NCBI RefSeq assembly: GCF_903166585.1
Contig: NZ_CAESCM010000002.1
Location: forward strand, 186,001-250,000
Direction of reading: 5' to 3'
Origin: Pedobacter ghigonis
GTDB taxonomy: Bacteria; Bacteroidota; Bacteroidia; Sphingobacteriales; Sphingobacteriaceae
DNA length: 64,000 bases
Position numbers and translations under genes: made by a program. The notes under the pieces are model-generated. The model was given only the letters and a program-made list of their open reading frames with translations, searched no databases and was not told the DNA's origin. Shown here piece by piece: positions 11,812-58,841 of this stretch; within the stretch, counting starts at the first letter, position 1, and each line of letters opens with the position of its first letter.

Positions 11812-11841
11812 CTGAGGTTACGAAAAATAACCGTACCTTTG
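11812..11841 (+). promoter_or_regulatory. Promoter of der
   Basis: CTG (11812-11814, one off TTG), 19-bp spacer and TACCTTTG (11834-11841). The implied 5-prime UTR of about 110 nt contains the palindromic word element at 11861-11950. Confidence 0.5.
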
Positions 11842-11860
11842 CAGCCCGAAATAAATCGGT

Positions 11861-11950
11861 TAGTAGTTGATAGTCAATGGCTGATAGCCAAATAGTTTAA
11901 GCAGCTTGCCTAAACACCACGACCATTAACTATAAGCCATTAACTATCAA
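11861..11950. repeat. Word-palindrome element in the der leader
   Basis: TTGATAGTCAATGG (11867-11880) and CCATTAACTATCAA (11937-11950) are reverse complements at 13 of 14 positions. CCATTAACTAT is repeated in tandem at 11923 and 11937. The element lies between the der promoter and start codon, so it would fold in the der mRNA leader. Confidence 0.65.
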
Positions 11951-11960
11951 AAGAACACCC

Positions 11961-18346: not shown

Positions 18347-19153
18347 ATGAACAGAGTAACCGAGCAAGAATCTAACTATAACCACATCGATCAGATGTCG
18401 GTGTTGGAAGTCTTGCAGGGCATTAATAACGAAGATAAAACTGTAGCGTTTGCTGTAGAAAAATCTTTGCCTCAGATCGAAAAATTAACTTCGGCAGTTG
18501 CCGAAAGAATGAAAAAAGGTGGCCGTCTTTTTTATATCGGAGCGGGTACGAGTGGGCGTTTAGGTGTGGTAGATGCATCAGAATGTCCGCCTACTTATGG
18601 CGTGCCTTTTGATTGGGTTGTCGGTATTATTGCAGGTGGCGATACGGCCATCAGAAGAGCTGTAGAATTTGCCGAAGATGATGCCGAACAAGCTTGGAAA
18701 GATTTACAGGAGTTTAATATTAACGAAAAAGATTGCCTGGTTGGCCTGGCCGCATCGGGTACTACCCCTTACGTTATTGGGGGACTAAATACAGCGCGTA
18801 AGTATGGGGTTTTAACAGGTTGCATTGTTTGCAATACCGGTGGGCCAATTGCTGCTGAATCTGATTTCCCGGTTGAAGTGGTGGTGGGACCCGAGTTTAT
18901 CACCGGTTCTACACGCATGAAATCGGGAACAGCACAGAAAATGGTTTTGAACATGTTAAGTACCACGGTTATGGTTCAACTCGGCCGTGTGGTAGGCAAT
19001 AAGATGGTTGATATGCAATTAACCAATCATAAACTGGTAGACCGCGGAACACAGATGGTTGCCGACGAGCTGCATATTGGCTACGAAGAAGCTGCTAAGT
19101 TGCTAAACCGCTACGGAAGTGTGCGTAAAGCAGTAGAAGCAGGGCAGCACTAA
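18347..19153 (+). CDS. murQ: N-acetylmuramic acid 6-phosphate etherase
   Basis: A 268-residue MurQ with the SIS sugar-phosphate domain (YIGAGTSGRLGVVDASECPP) and the family motif GSTRMKSGTAQKMVLNMLST. It cleaves the lactyl ether of MurNAc-6-phosphate to GlcNAc-6-phosphate in peptidoglycan recycling. It is slightly shorter than E. coli MurQ, lacking part of the C-terminal helical region. No MurNAc transporter or anmK is beside it. Confidence 0.92.
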   Translation: MNRVTEQESNYNHIDQMSVLEVLQGINNEDKTVAFAVEKSLPQIEKLTSAVAERMKKGGRLFYIGAGTSGRLGVVDASECPPTYGVPFDWVVGIIAGGDTAIRRAVEFAEDDAEQAWKDLQEFNINEKDCLVGLAASGTTPYVIGGLNTARKYGVLTGCIVCNTGGPIAAESDFPVEVVVGPEFITGSTRMKSGTAQKMVLNMLSTTVMVQLGRVVGNKMVDMQLTNHKLVDRGTQMVADELHIGYEEAAKLLNRYGSVRKAVEAGQH

Positions 19154-19156
19154 AAA

Positions 19157-19336
19157 ATGATTGAAGGATGGAATGACCGAATTAAAGATTGACTTTAAAC
19201 ATTCACTCATTCAAAATTCTTTCATTCAAAATTCGTTTAATCAAAATTAAATAATGATTGAAGGATAGGATGATTGAATTGGAGATGGGCTTAAACATTC
19301 ACTCATTCAAAATCCACACATTCAATAATGAAAAAC
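19157..19336. repeat. Tandem duplicated word-palindrome element
   Basis: Two copies of about 95 bp start at 19157 and 19254 with ATGATTGAAGGAT and share TTAAACATTCACTCATTCAAAAT. Each has a left half of TGA/GAAT words and a right half of ATTCA words, so it can fold back on itself. It fills the space between murQ and the next gene. Confidence 0.65.
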
Positions 19337-21082: not shown

Positions 21083-24000
21083 ATGAGCATTAGAGAAGAA
21101 TTAGAAAAACGTATTTTGGTGATTGATGGTGCGATGGGTACCATGATTCAGCGATATACCCTAACTGAAGAGGATTTTAGAGGGGAACGCTTTAAAGATC
21201 ATCCCTGCGATGTAAAAGGCAATAACGATTTGCTTAACATTACGCGCCCCGATATTATCAAAACCATACACCTCGAGTACATGGCTGCCGGCGCCGATAT
21301 TATCGAAACCAATACCTTTAGTACGCAGCGCATTTCGATGGCCGATTACCAGATGGAAGACCTTTCTTACGAAATGAGTTTCGAAGGAGCCAGGGTAGCC
21401 AAAGAAGCGGCCAACGAGTTTATGGCGGCTAATCCCGATCGCAAGTGCTTTGTTGCCGGTGCCATTGGCCCAACCAACCGTACCCTTTCAATGTCGCCGA
21501 ATGTTAACGACCCTGGTTTTAGGGCGGTTTATTTCGATGAACTCGAAGAAGCTTATTACGAGCAGGTTCGCGGGTTAGTAGATGGTGGTTCGGATGTGTT
21601 GTTGATTGAAACTATTTTCGATACTTTAAATGCAAAAGTGGCCATTGTTGCCATTAAAAAATACGAAGAAGTAATTGGCCGTAAGCTGGAGATTATGATC
21701 TCGGGTACCATTACCGATGCTTCGGGAAGAACATTGTCGGGCCAAACGGCCGAGGCTTTCTTAAACTCTGTAATGCATGCCAAACCATTGAGTATTGGCT
21801 TTAACTGTGCATTGGGAGCTAAAGAAATGCGTCCGCATATTGAAGAGCTGGCTGCAAAAGCAGGTTGCTATGTTTCGGCCTATCCAAATGCAGGTTTACC
21901 CAACGAGTTTGGAGCTTATGATGAACAGCCACACGAAACGGCACACCTGGTTGATGATTTTATTGCATCGGGCTTTGTGAATATTGTTGGTGGCTGTTGC
22001 GGTACCACCCCCGATCACATTGGTTGCATTGCTAAAAATGCCCGGAAAGCTGAGCCTAGAAAATTACCTGTGCTCGAGCCTTATATGCGTTTAAGCGGAC
22101 TTGAGCCGGTAACCATTACACCTGAAAGTATTTTTGTAAACATAGGTGAAAGAACCAATATTACCGGATCGCCAAAATTCTCGAAACTGATTTTAGGTGG
22201 CGATTACGAAGCCGCTTTAGCCGTTGCCTTACAGCAGGTAGAAGGTGGTGCGCAGGTTATTGACGTGAATATGGACGAGGGGATGCTCGATTCGGAAGCA
22301 GCCATGACCAAATTTCTGAACCTGATTGCTTCTGAACCTGATATTGCCAAACTGCCCATCATGGTCGATTCGTCAAAATGGTCGGTGATTGAGAATGGCT
22401 TAAAGTGCTTGCAAGGGAAAGGGATTGTGAACTCGATTTCCTTAAAAGAAGGTGAAGAAAAATTCCGTGAAAGCGCCCGCAAAATTATGCAGTATGGTGC
22501 TGCTGTTGTGGTAATGGCTTTTGATGAGCAGGGACAGGCCGATAATTACGAACGCAGAAAAGAAATTTGTAAAAGAAGTTACGATATCCTGGTAAACGAA
22601 ATCGGCTTCCCGGCAGAAGATATTATTTTCGACCCGAATATTTTAACCGTGGCCACCGGACTGGAGGAACACAACAATTACGCGGTCGACTTTATTAATG
22701 CTACGCGGTGGATTAAAGAAAACCTGCCTCACGCCAAGGTAAGCGGTGGGGTTTCGAATATTTCGTTCTCTTTCAGGGGTAACAATGTGGTTCGCGAAGC
22801 CATGCACTCTGCATTTCTTTATCACGCCATTCAGGCAGGTTTAGACATGGGGATTGTAAATGCCGGTATGCTGGAGGTTTATCAGGAAATTCCACCCGAA
22901 TTATTAGAAAGGGTAGAAGATGTACTGTTAAACCGCAGAGAAGATGCTACTGAGCGTCTGGTAGAATATGCCGATACTGTAAAATCCAAAGGGAAAGAGA
23001 TTGTTAAAGATGAAGAATGGAGAAAAGGATCTGTTGAAGAAAGATTATCACACTCATTGGTAAAAGGTATTGTAGAATATCTGGATGACGATGTAGAAGA
23101 AGCCCGCCAGAAGTATGCCCGTCCGATTCAGGTAATTGAGGGGCCATTGATGGATGGGATGAACATTGTGGGCGATTTATTTGGTGCCGGTAAAATGTTC
23201 CTGCCCCAGGTAGTAAAATCAGCCAGGGTAATGAAAAAAGCCGTTGCATACCTCTTGCCTTTTATTGAACAGGAAAAACTCGACAATCCTGATCAGGATC
23301 AAAACTCATCGGCAGGGAAGGTTTTAATGGCTACTGTAAAAGGCGATGTACACGATATCGGTAAAAACATTGTGGGTGTAGTACTGGCTTGTAACAACTT
23401 CGAAATTGTAGATATGGGTGTGATGGTTCCTGCACAGGATATCATCAAAAAAGCCAAAGAAATAAATGCCGATATTATTGGTTTAAGCGGATTAATCACT
23501 CCTTCATTGGATGAAATGGTTCATTTTGCTAAAGAAATGGAGCGCGAAGGTTTTACCATACCTTTAATTATTGGTGGTGCAACTACCTCGCGTATTCATG
23601 CTGCGGTAAAAGTGGCACCAAATTATTCGGGTCCGGCCATTCACGTATTGGATGCATCGAGAAGTGTTACAGTGTGCAGCACTTTGATGAACCCCGATAC
23701 CAAAGACGAATACGTAGCCGGTATAAAAGCCGAATACGATAAAGCGCGTGAAGCACATTTAAACAAACGTTCGGATAAGCGTTTTAAAACATTGCAAGAA
23801 GCCCGCGAAAATAAATTTAAGATAGATTTTCAACCCAACCTGCCCGTTCCTGAATTTACCGGAACAAAGGTTTTTGATAATTACCCATTAGAAGAACTGG
23901 TACCTTACATCGACTGGACACCGTTTTTCCATACCTGGGAGCTTCGTGGAAGTTATCCGAAAATTTTTGACGATAAAAACGTAGGCGATGAAGCCAAAAA

Positions 24001-24784
24001 GCTTTTCGATGATGCACAAACCTTGTTAAAAAGAATTCTCGACGAGAAATTGCTAACGGCAAGAGGCGTAATCGGTTTCTGGCCGGCAAATGCAGATGGA
24101 GACGATATTCAGTTAACAGTTGACAGTAATCAGTTGGTAAATAACTCCGAACTGAAAACTGAAAACTCCCAACTGGTAACCATACATACCCTTCGCCAGC
24201 AGGCCGAGAAAGTAGACGGACAGCCTTATTATGCCTTGTCTGATTTTATTGCGCCGAAAGAAAGCGGTATTCAGGATTATTTTGGTGGCTTTGCTGTAAC
24301 AACGGGTATTGGTATTGATGAACTGGTGAACGAATTTGAAGCCAACCACGACGATTACAACAGTATTATGGCTAAAGCACTTGCCGATCGTTTAGCTGAA
24401 GCTTTTGCTGAGCGCATGCACGAGCGTGTACGTAAAGAATACTGGGGTTATGCCAAAGATGAAAATCTAAGCAATCAGGAACTGATTAAAGAAGAATATG
24501 CAGGTATCCGTCCGGCACCGGGTTATCCGGCCTGCCCGGAGCATACCGAAAAAGGAACTTTATTTGCGTTGCTTGATGCAGAAAATAAAATTGGTTTACG
24601 CCTCACGGAAAGTTACGCCATGTATCCAACAGCAGCCGTAAGCGGTTTTTATTTCGCACATCCCGATTCGAAATATTTTGGTTTAGGTAAAATTACCAAA
24701 GATCAGATTGAAGATTATGCCATCAGAAAAGATATGCCGGTTGAAGAAGTAGAACGGTGGTTAAGTCCGAATTTAGCTTATTAA
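21083..24784 (+). CDS. metH: Cobalamin-dependent methionine synthase
   Basis: A full-length 1233-residue MetH. Domains in order: homocysteine-binding (zinc Cys in GFNCALGAK and GGCCGTTP), pterin-binding ([16 protein letters not shown] onward), cobalamin-binding with [15 protein letters not shown] (the DxHxxG cobalt ligand) and the SAM-binding reactivation domain, ending with [15 protein letters not shown]. It methylates homocysteine using 5-methyl-THF. It is controlled by the S-box upstream and followed by metF, which supplies the methyl donor. Odd: residues about 1010-1033 are encoded by a palindromic word repeat like those found between genes. Confidence 0.97.
24110..24176. repeat. Word-palindrome element inside metH
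   Basis: The left half repeats CAGTT words (CAGTTAACAGTTGACAGT, CAGTTGG) and the right half repeats the complement AACTG (GAACTGAAAACTGAAAACT, CCAACTGG). It is read in frame between GDDIQ and TIHTLRQQ, where related MetH proteins usually have a short acidic turn. Confidence 0.7.
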
Positions 24785-24932: not shown

Positions 24933-25886
24933 ATGAAGATTACAGACCATATAAAAAACGCAAAGGGTAAAACCTTATTCTCTTTCGAATTATTGCCGCC
25001 AATGAAGGGGCAGAGCATCCAGTGGGTTTACGATGCCATTGATCCTTTGCTGGAGTTTAATCCACCTTTTATCGATGTAACTTCCCTACGCGAAGACTAC
25101 ATTTATAAAGAGCAGGAGAACGGTTTATTGCAAAAGGTTTCGTACCGCAAACGCCCTGGAACCATTGCCATTTGTGCAGCTATTATCCATAAATATAAAA
25201 TTGATGCCGTACCGCACTTAATTTGTGGTGGTTTTACCAAAGAAGAAACTGAAAATGCACTGATTGATCTGCAGTTTTTGGGGATTGATAATGTGCTGGC
25301 GCTACGTGGCGATGCCCGTCAGGCCGAAGCCTCATTTATTCCCACCAAAGGCGGTCACCATTATGCCACCGATTTGATTCAGCACATTAAAGATCATAAC
25401 AATGGTAAGTTTTTGCATGAGGATATCGATACCTACAAAAGTGATTTCTGTATTGGTGTAGCGGGCTATCCGGAGAAACATTTCGAAGCACCTAATTTAA
25501 ATGCCGACTTTAAATACCTGAAAAAGAAAGTAGATATGGGTGCTGAGTTTATTGTTACCCAAATGTTTTTTGATAATCAGAAGTATTTTGATTTTGTTAA
25601 AAAATGCAGGGAGAACGACATCAATGTACCGATTATTCCGGGGTTAAAACCAATCAGCACCTTAAAACAGTTAACGGTTTTACCTAAAATTTTCCACCTC
25701 GATTTGCCAAATGAGTTAACCGAAGCATTATCATATGCTAAGAATAATGCAGAGGCTAAAGAAATCGGTACCGAAGCCATGATTAAACAATGTAAAGAAC
25801 TGATGGATTTCGGCGCGCCTGTATTGCATTTTTATACCATGGGCAGACCGGAGCAAACCAAAGAAATTGCCAGGGCAATTTTTTAA
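24933..25886 (+). CDS. metF: Methylenetetrahydrofolate reductase
   Basis: A 317-residue MetF, a flavin TIM barrel making 5-methyl-THF for MetH. Landmarks: TLFSFELLPPMKGQ with the catalytic Glu, VLALRGDARQ, and EFIVTQMFFDNQKYFDF. It lies 148 bp after metH, separated by REP-like repeats. It may share the S-box-controlled transcript. A hairpin (25899-25929) follows the stop. Confidence 0.94.
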   Translation: MKITDHIKNAKGKTLFSFELLPPMKGQSIQWVYDAIDPLLEFNPPFIDVTSLREDYIYKEQENGLLQKVSYRKRPGTIAICAAIIHKYKIDAVPHLICGGFTKEETENALIDLQFLGIDNVLALRGDARQAEASFIPTKGGHHYATDLIQHIKDHNNGKFLHEDIDTYKSDFCIGVAGYPEKHFEAPNLNADFKYLKKKVDMGAEFIVTQMFFDNQKYFDFVKKCRENDINVPIIPGLKPISTLKQLTVLPKIFHLDLPNELTEALSYAKNNAEAKEIGTEAMIKQCKELMDFGAPVLHFYTMGRPEQTKEIARAIF

Positions 25887-25898
25887 CAGACTTTAAAA

Positions 25899-25929
25899 GA
25901 CCTGTCGGCTATTTAATCCCTACAGGTCT
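25899..25929 (+). terminator. Hairpin after metF
   Basis: AGACCTGT (25899-25906) pairs with ACAGGTCT (25922-25929). The loop is 15 nt and there is no strong T-run, so termination is possible but unproven. Confidence 0.4.
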
Positions 25930-25964
25930 GAATGTTTCCCGAACAACCTAAACTGTATTTGACC

Positions 25965-42174: not shown

Positions 42175-42546
42175 ATGCAAGCGCAAAGTTCCTCTATAGA
42201 TTTTTTACCGATTATATTTCAAGTAATTGTTGCTTTAGGTTTCGTAGTAACCACTTTGGTAGCTACACACTTATTGGGTCCTAAACGTAAAACAGCCGAT
42301 AAATTAGAAACCTTTGAAGCTGGTATTAAAAGTGTGGGTAATGCACGTCAGCCTTTCTCCATTAAATATTTCGTAGTAGCAATACTGTTTGTTTTGTTCG
42401 ATGTAGAGGTTATTTTCATGTACCCATGGGCCGTAAATTTCCGTGCGTTAAAAATGGATGGTATGATAGAGATGTTCATTTTTATGGGCACTTTACTGTT
42501 GGGTTTCATCTACGTAATCAAGAAAAAAGTATTAGACTGGAACTAG
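42175..42546 (+). CDS. nuoA: NADH-quinone oxidoreductase subunit A
   Basis: A 123-residue three-helix membrane subunit of complex I. The family loop is present: GPKRKTADKLETFEAGI, then RQPFSIKYFVVAILFVLFDVEVIFMYPWA with the conserved acidic residue in the second helix. First gene of the nuo series; a word-palindrome element begins at its stop codon. Confidence 0.95.
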   Translation: MQAQSSSIDFLPIIFQVIVALGFVVTTLVATHLLGPKRKTADKLETFEAGIKSVGNARQPFSIKYFVVAILFVLFDVEVIFMYPWAVNFRALKMDGMIEMFIFMGTLLLGFIYVIKKKVLDWN

Positions 42547-42631
42547 TTAGTTAACAGTTTTTAGTTCGCAATTGGTAGTTAATAACCTGCGGTTGTATGA
42601 ACTGTAAACTGAAAATTGTCAACTACAAACC
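42545..42631. repeat. Word-palindrome element between nuoA and nuoB
   Basis: The left half repeats AGTT words (AGTTAGTTAACAGTTTTTAG, GGTAGTTAAT); the right half repeats AACTG/AACTA (GAACTGTAAACTGAAAATTG, TCAACTACAAACC). Starts at the nuoA stop codon. Confidence 0.7.
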
Positions 42632-45037: not shown

Positions 45038-45545
45038 AGTAGAAGAACAAACACCTGTAACGTTTTCATCAGAATTGCTGGCCAAATTTGATGAAATAAA
45101 AAGTCGTTATCCGGAAGGAAAACAAAAATCAGCTTTGCTACCCTTATTACACCTGGTGCAGGCCGAATTTCTTTGGGTTCCAACATCGGCAATGGATCAA
45201 GTTGCTGCGTATTTAAATATTCAGCCAATTGAAGTATATGAGGTAGCAACATTTTATACCATGTACTTTTTAAAACCACAAGGTAAATATGCTTTGGAGG
45301 TTTGCCGTACAGGGCCTTGCTGCCTGGTAGGTGCCGAAAAAATATTAAGCCACTTAGAAGACAAGTTGGGCGTAAAAGAAGGTGAAGTAACTGCCGATGG
45401 CCTTTTCAGCTTTAGAGGAGTTGAATGTTTGGCCGCATGCGGTTTCGGTCCGGTGTTACAAATTAGTCCGGAATATACTTTCTATGAAAACCTAACTACC
45501 GAAAGTGTAGATAAACTGATTGAAGATTTGAAAAATAAGTCCTAA
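45030..45545 (+). CDS. nuoE: NADH-quinone oxidoreductase subunit E
   Basis: A 171-residue 24-kDa-family subunit with [2Fe-2S] cluster N1a: CRTGPCCLVGAE supplies two Cys and ECLAACGFGP the others. It overlaps nuoD by 8 bp. The last codons (AAT AAG TCC TAA) are the first words of the repeat that fills the nuoE-nuoF gap. Confidence 0.95.
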   Translation: MLKVEEQTPVTFSSELLAKFDEIKSRYPEGKQKSALLPLLHLVQAEFLWVPTSAMDQVAAYLNIQPIEVYEVATFYTMYFLKPQGKYALEVCRTGPCCLVGAEKILSHLEDKLGVKEGEVTADGLFSFRGVECLAACGFGPVLQISPEYTFYENLTTESVDKLIEDLKNKS

Positions 45546-45616
45546 GTCGCAAGTCTTAAGTCGGGAGTTAATTTAGACTCAAGACTATGGACTATTTGAC
45601 TACAGACTATAGACTA
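45537..45616. repeat. Word-palindrome element at the nuoE-nuoF junction
   Basis: The left half repeats AAGTC words (AAGTCCTAAGTCGCAAGTCT, TAAGTCGGG); the right half repeats GACT words (TTAGACTCAAGACTATGG, ACTATTTGACTACAGACT, ATAGACTA). The nuoE stop codon lies inside the left half. Confidence 0.75.
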
Positions 45617-58805: not shown

Positions 58806-58841
58806 TTTGAAGTTTTCAGTTTTTAATTTTCAGTTTTCGAG
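58806..58841. repeat. Half word-repeat at the DUF4159 gene start
   Basis: TTTTCAGTTTTTAATTTTCA followed by GTTTTC repeats the word TTTTCAG. Only one half of the palindromic design is present. It starts 5 bp after the rsmE stop codon and encodes the first 12 residues of the next protein. Confidence 0.5.

Follow-up and report, generated by a model that had tools for sequence, protein, structure and literature searches.

We uncovered a class of DNA elements, represented at several loci in a Pedobacter ghigonis genome, that is defined by a period and a mirror symmetry and by no single sequence. In each element a core of 4-5 bases recurs at 7-base steps, a loop follows, and the core then recurs at the same step as its reverse complement; most elements occupy the gap from a stop codon to the gene that follows. 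We interpret these loci as heptad-word palindromes that would be born in 7-nt steps together with a mirrored copy, be kept as hairpins or loops, and be exchanged by recombination, a reading to which we assign a probability of about 0.45. Repeat finders and the catalogues of MITEs and REPs group elements by sequence; hence, they scatter into unrelated scraps a class in which only the period and the mirror are common to all members. The constant design with changing words at gene ends points to both a making process and a use for the hairpin.

Word palindromes in the window

The window, i.e., the whole stretch of 64,000 nucleotides analysed here, is part of contig 2 of a 5.92 Mb assembly (genome label G000). 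The genes metH (Met_synt_B12), nuoA (Oxidored_q4), nuoF (Complex1_51K), der/engA and a DUF4159 gene were named by Pfam, and the names nuoB to nuoE and those of the other nuo genes come from operon order alone. A preliminary description of this DNA had listed six loci, in each of which short words are repeated in one direction and then as their reverse complement. Their parts are the following:

11864..11948, + strand: palindrome of TAGTTGA type, flanked by a promoter-like TACCTTTG box and the der/engA start (11961), almost invariant across species
19157..19243, + strand: first of two tandem TGAAT/ATTCA palindromes, best period 8, directly 3′ of the stop codon of the ORF 18347-19153
19254..19324, + strand: second TGAAT/ATTCA palindrome, in the same spacer
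24110..24137, + strand: left arm of element 24110, CAGTTNN words, in frame within metH (ORF 21083-24784), in the activation domain
24150..24176, + strand: right arm of element 24110, AACTGNN words
42544..42582, + strand: left arm of element 42545, CAGTTNN/TAGTTNN words, starting on the stop codon of nuoA (gene 42175-42546, Oxidored_q4)
42600..42626, + strand: right arm of element 42545, AACTGNN words
45537..45569, + strand: left arm of element 45537, AAGTCNN words that overlap the final codons and the stop codon of nuoE
45576..45616, + strand: right arm of element 45537, GACTNNN words, its end 6 bases 5′ of the ATG of nuoF (45623; Complex1_51K)
58807..58840, + strand: CAGTTTT period-7 run in the N-terminal coding part of the DUF4159 protein, without a hairpin; not an element of the class

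The TACCTTTG box 5′ of der is presumably the TAnnTTTG promoter motif of this phylum. The elements sit in gaps between genes, save 24110, which is in frame within metH. Seven segments, with the 19157 locus taken as two halves, were folded as RNA against 200 dinucleotide shuffles each, and the fold z was −3.80 for 11861, −3.88 for 24110, −3.25 for 42545, −3.83 for 45537, and −2.39 and −2.30 for the first and second halves of 19157; in the same test 58806 (+0.08) formed no hairpin. Against 2000 dinucleotide shuffles, identity at a 7-base offset was raised in 11861 (P 0.0035), 42545 (P 0.0005), and 24110, 45537 and 58806 (0/2000 shuffles as high in each). It was not above the shuffles in either half of 19157 (P 0.43 and 0.38), where the best offset is 8, with identities of 0.42 and 0.44 that carry no P value. 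The 58806 run is the start of an ORF with a TTG codon (LKFSVFNFQFS...), the first 25 codons of which are open in 17/17 relatives having the gene, and we exclude it from the class because it is coding sequence without a hairpin. Five of the six described word palindromes (11861, 19157, 24110, 42545 and 45537; z −2.3 to −3.9) were thereby upheld and the sixth, at 58806, was lost.

The preliminary description had also proposed to find such elements by a high density of a k-mer in one half and of its complement in the other. This marker proved weaker: inverted 6-mer matches between halves exceeded the shuffles in 2/7 segments (11861, P 0.0005; 24110, 0/2000), the remaining 5/7 having P of 0.12 to 1, and when the whole window was scanned by 5-mers for half/half asymmetry, the loci did not stand apart from eight Markov-3 sequences, A+T-rich words swamping the scan. 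Given that word asymmetry is mostly at shuffle level and that period and hairpin are above it, the true signature of the loci is period 7 (or 8) with a hairpin.

In 13 hand-picked elements from several loci and species, 327/398 core bases and 49/109 between-core bases are paired; the stem is made up of short helices in series, which in several elements are separated by internal loops of about 2x2. Some elements (G154 C44 and G197 C10) are mirror-perfect with the between-core bases included, and others mirror in their cores only. No T run of the kind that marks an intrinsic terminator was seen on reading 3′ of the right arms of 45537 and 42545.

Five words in one frame of metH

A metH match is present in 142/145 genomes of the genus, and the DNA of 72 was read. 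Among these 72, the insert is of the CAGTT/AACTG type in 15, GAGTT/AACTC in 11, AAGTC/GACT in 14 (2 of them chimeric), ATGGA/TCCAT in 11 and CAGGTT in 1; the remainder comprises a CCCC-type or DUF559 insert in 2, a one-sided array in 1 and no insert in 17. In the two chimeric alleles (G307 and G208), which were scored as AAGTC by the left arm, the right arm is of another type and the mirror is broken; the short remnants in G188, G246 and G013 were scored under their own type. Not one stop codon interrupts the stretch in any of the 72 genomes, 54 of which have a two-armed insert or remnant. Several lengths within a type are 21 nt apart, which corresponds to three heptads (99/78, 114/93/135 and 105/126 nt); others depart from this, namely G188 (81 nt), G013 (78 nt), G255 (111 nt) and two genomes in which the ATGGA-type insert forms tandem copies that are still in frame, of 225 nt (L148, G194) and 243 nt (L149, G185).

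When 52 metH flanks are placed in a tree, the word types are scattered over it, and neighbours are often of different type (G259/G161, G145/G173, G088/G182, G261/G234 and G254/G245). Therefore, the types have been swapped or rewritten between close species. Because they are alignable between species, scattered on the tree and in two cases chimeric, the metH alleles are also inherited and exchanged. At the empty site of G081 an ACAGGTT occurs where G125 has the CAGGTT array; in a local-seed test, however, real and control words did not separate, 11/23 unrelated control words being likewise present in empty metH sites. Its five texts at a single codon position, all within one genus, make metH a ready model site.

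Word replacement and hairpin selection between nuoE and nuoF

At the nuoE/nuoF junction a palindrome is found in 21 genomes of the genus (that of P. ghigonis included), with AAGTC/GACT words in 16, GAGAT/ATCTC in 3 (G161, G232 and G145) and the CCCC type in 2 (G185 and G248). The spacers were measured at 74-79 nt, with one of 137, each figure being 2 too long. Six further stretches among 20 fetched were readable: in G224, G243, G256, G115 and G164 there is no insert and the two genes overlap as TAATG, and G265 has a different spacer. The nuoE tail of G164 ends in ATCTCACATCTAAAAAATAATG, which matches the last bases of the ATCTC-type element in G232; this might reflect a local seed of the word, but G164 could also be a deletion product. 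G232 bears another word than its close relative G252, the divergence between them reaching about 12 bases into nuoE and about 15 into nuoF, a pattern that looks like a very short recombination tract.

Mean pairwise difference among the 16 AAGTC-type sequences is 6.3% for the 44 core columns, 27.4% for the 27 between-core columns and 34.9% for the loop, against a baseline of 38.8% at the four-fold degenerate sites of eight nuo genes. The between-core bases drift at a rate not far below the synonymous one while pairing stays. In the consensus hairpin of 22 pairs, 27 changes keep a pair (24 one-sided and 3 two-sided) and 7 break one, these being counts over related sequences and hence not independent events; by expectation, 23/44 possible single transitions keep a pair and transversions never do, and transversions make up about half of the changes in unpaired columns (45/88). 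Of all cells, 98.0% are paired versus a shuffled mean of 97.1%, with 0/500 shuffles as high, a margin that is small because the columns are conserved. Three pairs have double changes, which 2/500 shuffles reach.

The covariation is carried mainly by G-U changes together with these three double changes. It is weak, since own arms pair no better than arms taken from different species (mean −22.5 kcal/mol for own left with own right arms versus −23.2 with the right arms of other species, 16 sequences), and coevolution of the arms, as gauged by own-versus-cross pairing, was accordingly dropped. As kept G-U pairs count only in RNA, we read the selection as acting on RNA, and the hairpin seems, from these substitutions, to be selected at the transcript level at this one locus. 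The cores being under selection, the repeated word is partly kept and not only made.

The expected turnover of such spacers between relatives was borne out by the replaced words at metH and nuoE/nuoF, but not at 11861, which has undergone none and is near-identical in the 8 relatives compared.

CAGTT/AACTG elements: arm order and spread

The triple AACTGNNAACTGNNAACT has 36 copies in G000, where its reversed control has 0, and is present in 82/201 genomes of the family; within the genus sample its distribution is patchy, from 0 to 68 matches. The reversed pattern scores in some other genera, up to 50+50, as perfect tandem arrays match both ways. The order of the arms is fixed: among neighbouring arrays at most 150 bp apart, CAGTT-then-AACTG occurs 19 times and the opposite order 0 times, same-direction pairs numbering 5 and 3. 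Because most of the 19 ordered pairs are orthologues of the nuoA and metH elements, a genome-wide count of order was made, in which CAGTT..AACTG is found in 23/201 family genomes and AACTG..CAGTT in 1 (G124, two loci).

With regard to common descent, a GCCAACTGAAAACTG phrase recurs in six genomes (G000, G173, G154, G185, G194 and G197). Within G000, the 31 AACTG arrays share 10 neighbouring between-core pairs versus 9.6 after shuffling (P 0.47), and no common loop was noticed among same-word elements at different loci.

When 84,980 species genomes were scanned for the CAGTT palindrome, at least 115 stretches outside the genus matched, with record titles for 80. By title, the matches listed fall into about twelve phylum- or class-level groups: Bacteroidota, Cyanobacteria, Chloroflexota, Planctomycetota, Acidobacteria, Alpha-, Beta-, Gamma- (Nevskia) and Deltaproteobacteria, Poribacteria, Thermodesulfovibrionales and a Dialister. 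Many of these genomes are metagenome-assembled, with taxonomy as in the record titles, and the local G+C of the listed stretches ranges from 0.34 to 0.70. Among the matches listed, 10/106 elements lie within ORFs versus 821/1110 random 60-mers. Their distance to the neighbouring stop codon has a median of 10 and is at most 15 in 64/103; that to the neighbouring start codon has a median of 50 and is at most 15 in 25/75. That CAGTT recurs in phyla so far apart is more suggestive of one particular source than of random seeds, a point against the origin proposed below.

These data bear on the earlier contention that the elements are not copies of one ancestor. It stands for the class as a whole, in which the words differ and the between-core bases of the 31 arrays agree at chance level; it is to be tempered insofar as alleles are inherited and exchanged, CAGTT/AACTG recurs in distant phyla and the nuoE/nuoF cores are selected. 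One-ancestor copying fails to explain the class, of which recombination and RNA-level selection explain a part.

Period 7 and mirror partners regardless of word

In 1.26 Mb of stretches, orthologues included, there are 79 arrays of period 7 and at most 13 at any other period from 5 to 13. Other words of the same design occur in the listed stretches outside the genus, such as GGTAATN, GATTGNN, GGTGANN, GGAATNN, AGGTTNN and more. Since most arrays come from stretches chosen for a CAGTT partner, an unmasked count of arrays with a partner (161/381, control 7) is inflated. We relied on a masked set, in which the CAGTT surroundings of the 115 listed stretches, themselves selected for CAGTT, were masked and arrays of at least 3 units were counted. 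This yielded 113 period-7 arrays in 48/115 of the listed stretches, with between-core bases identical in 34 and varied in 79, versus 6, 12, 33, 5, 0 and 15 arrays at periods 6, 8, 9, 10, 11 and 12, respectively. A reverse-complement partner within 150 bp accompanies 29/113 masked arrays, compared with 5 for the reversed word and 1 for the complement alone; 84/113 have no partner at that stringency. One-armed arrays exist (L024 and L027). Together with the different words at orthologous sites, these word-independent period-7 palindromes in other phyla strongly support the earlier proposal of a shared architecture with differing text.

The arms also differ in base composition. Where the left arm lacks CAGTT, G exceeds C in the 5′ arm of 24/29 elements, falls short of it in 4 and equals it in 1, three of the 24 being nuoE/nuoF orthologues and one (L057) having an AACTG right arm. 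In the listed CAGTT elements outside the genus, a G excess is found in only 62/123, a C excess in 32 and equality in 29.

Beside the main period, period 9 forms a smaller second peak in the masked set, with 33 arrays of which 7 have a mirror partner. Palindromes may also be nested: in L234 a GGCACAAAG-type word palindrome surrounds a CAGTT element, and at L242:7598-7730 a CAGTT palindrome lies within the loop of an AGGTTCA/GAACCTC palindrome.

Proposed origin and alternative explanations

The heptad-word palindromes would, as a best guess, originate by tandem expansion of some seed in 7-nt steps, the second arm being a fold-back (template-switch) copy of the first. Between-core bases are paired in 49/109, so that only some elements still show what an exact fold-back copy at birth would leave. 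Where relatives lack the insert, the genes nuoE and nuoF overlap (TAATG); we suggest that an insert may survive by folding out of the mRNA, whereby the neighbouring stop and start codons would stay close. Alternatively, a loop in the protein may tolerate it. The pairing constraint would then hold the cores alike while the between-core bases drift, and recombination would swap word types between species. The preliminary description had named slippage in a fold-back as an example of a generating process, but plain slippage does not predict the 7-base step. No birth event was seen among the compared genomes.

Going further, it is possible, if on balance unlikely, that many phyla share a DNA-making process that adds a local or templated word in seven-base steps and mirrors it, perhaps at breaks and gene ends, with the products being domesticated as RNA hairpins and protein loops. 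If the class is one thing, it would constitute a large cross-phylum source of new intergenic hairpins and protein loops and give a direct handle on the birth of gene spacers and loops, with the seven-base step being a fingerprint for tracing the responsible enzyme.

The main rival to this origin in seven-base steps is mobility: the elements would form a superfamily of non-autonomous MITE- or REP-like sequences, small in size and comprising several word families, moved by transposases favouring gene ends, and different words at one site would be independent insertions or the result of allele exchange. The occurrence of CAGTT/AACTG in many groups and at numerous loci within a genome (G000: 36 triples, reversed 0), its patchy distribution in the genus (0 to 68), the GCCAACTGAAAACTG phrase common to six genomes, and the resemblance of CCCC-type palindromes at the same sites to short forms of DUF559 elements all accord with mobility. 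However, the between-core series in the 31 G000 arrays agree only at chance level and no common loop was noticed; no target-site duplication was recognised by eye in comparisons of filled and empty sites; G000 has no match to a Y1/REP-type transposase despite its 36 triples; and one period is common to many words. On the whole, we regard this explanation as rather unlikely, though it is the strongest of the alternatives.

It is also conceivable, by analogy with fused telomeres, that both 3′ ends of a break are extended with G-rich 7-nt repeats by a telomerase- or terminal-transferase-like polymerase and then joined head-to-head. Such extension would fit the fixed arm order, the often independent between-core bases of the two arms, the one-armed arrays (84/113 masked arrays without a partner), and the greater G content of the strand to be extended in 24/29 non-CAGTT elements (C-richer in 4, equal in 1). 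However, near-perfect palindromes exist (G154 C44 and G197), the G excess reaches only 62/123 in the listed CAGTT elements outside the genus, and the many words per genome would need many templates, which makes this an improbable source.

A slightly poorer candidate still is that the elements are clustered binding sites of nucleic-acid-binding proteins, the palindrome reflecting two-sided binding and the words differing with the regulators. While conserved cores with drifting spacers, and a position adjoining gene ends, would be natural for binding sites, whole words are exchanged at the same site between close species, the words are many, one element lies within the metH coding sequence, and RNA pairing accounts for the pair-keeping substitutions. 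Finally, chance low-complexity sequence, with which the shuffle-level word asymmetry in 5/7 segments and in the whole-window scan agrees, is refuted for 5/6 loci by hairpin z, the period-7 and partner excesses and conservation, and is scarcely credible.

Comparison with known repeats

Several known repeats share parts of this design. The short tandemly repeated repetitive (STRR) heptanucleotides of cyanobacteria are degenerate 7-base tandem units between genes; STRRs are known as tandem arrays, and are not known to have the mirror partner and the free choice of word of the present elements. The Rickettsia palindromic elements are palindromic inserts of about 100-150 bp lying in frame within genes, with a consensus for each family. 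The metH insert is likewise palindromic and in frame (no stop in 72 genomes), but in contrast to those elements it has no family consensus, there being five metH words besides the CCCC type, and its unit is a heptad. REPs and REPINs are many-copy intergenic palindromes that go with RAYT (Y1) transposases; here, too, there are many copies of intergenic palindromes, but no short fixed consensus. PF01797 (Y1_Tnp) has 0 matches in G000 and is present in 28/36 genus genomes, and REP/RAYT was rejected as the mover on account of the former. MITEs are short inverted-repeat inserts between genes. In the word elements, no consensus ends or duplicated target were recognised by eye on comparing filled and empty sites; the CCCC-type palindromes with DUF559 fit MITEs better.

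The closest parallel is the heptamer TAACTGA, reported as direct repeats in Beggiatoaceae, Cyanobacteria and five Bacteroidetes (MacGregor 2015, PMC4679880). In the parts of that report consulted, the sets are intergenic, near start and stop codons, and differ by 7-nt indels between Cyanothece strains; close relatives without the repeats have shorter spacers; one of 170 sets is an inverted repeat, the others being direct; related heptamers are stated to be rarely or never repeated, with reference to the BOGUAY main genome; and protein binding is proposed for the repeats (PMC4679880). The present elements are alike in having a 7-base unit and an AACTG core (36 triples in G000; period identity in 24110 and 42545). 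They differ in that 113 masked period-7 arrays of other words occur in the listed stretches, and that AAGTC, GAGTT, GAGAT and ATGGA occur at orthologous sites. The same parts of the TAACTGA account include no regular palindromic pairing, equivalents with other words, replacement of words at a site or analysis of constraint. In a literature search that reached few subscription papers, neither heptad elements that are mirror-paired and word-free nor the rewording of a single site came up. Thus, heptamer direct repeats were already known, and the mirror-paired, word-free form appears to be new as far as that search reached.

CCCC-type palindromes, DUF559 elements and other gene junctions

At some of the same sites we found CCCC-type palindromes, among them the metH site in L166 (G258) and L335 (G130). 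In G258, an in-frame metH insert of 528 nt encodes a DUF559 domain, which we take to be endonuclease-like, between CCCTTCCC/GGGAAGGG-type arms. DUF559 genes can lie between CCCC-type palindromes, with inverted repeats of at least 14 bp in 5/30 loci examined (L152, L153, L155, L167 and L176), and DUF559 elements may be the full-length form of the CCCC-type palindromes. DUF559 was also considered as the mover of the word elements and rejected, G000 having one DUF559 match versus 36 AACTG triples; we retain it for the CCCC type only.

CCCC-type palindromes also lie exactly between stop and start codons at nuoC-nuoD (L074/L075) and nuoH-nuoI (L068) in G150, G268 and G185; these nuo genes overlap or lie 2 nt apart, and the palindromes are absent in the other relatives compared. 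In the nuoI-nuoJ spacer and that at 25886-25932, close species differ in which of several further palindromic families (GTCATTGCGAGG..., ACCTCGCAGGT... and others) is present, one taking the place of another. At 11820-11960 in the window, the der leader 3′ of the TACCTTTG box, which is near-identical in 8 relatives and in this is unlike the other elements, holds a small ATG...TAA/TGA reading frame (MADSQIV). At the nuoK-nuoL junction of G217 (L069) lies an insert of 174 nt whose last part nearly copies the nuoK end, as though by duplication of the junction.
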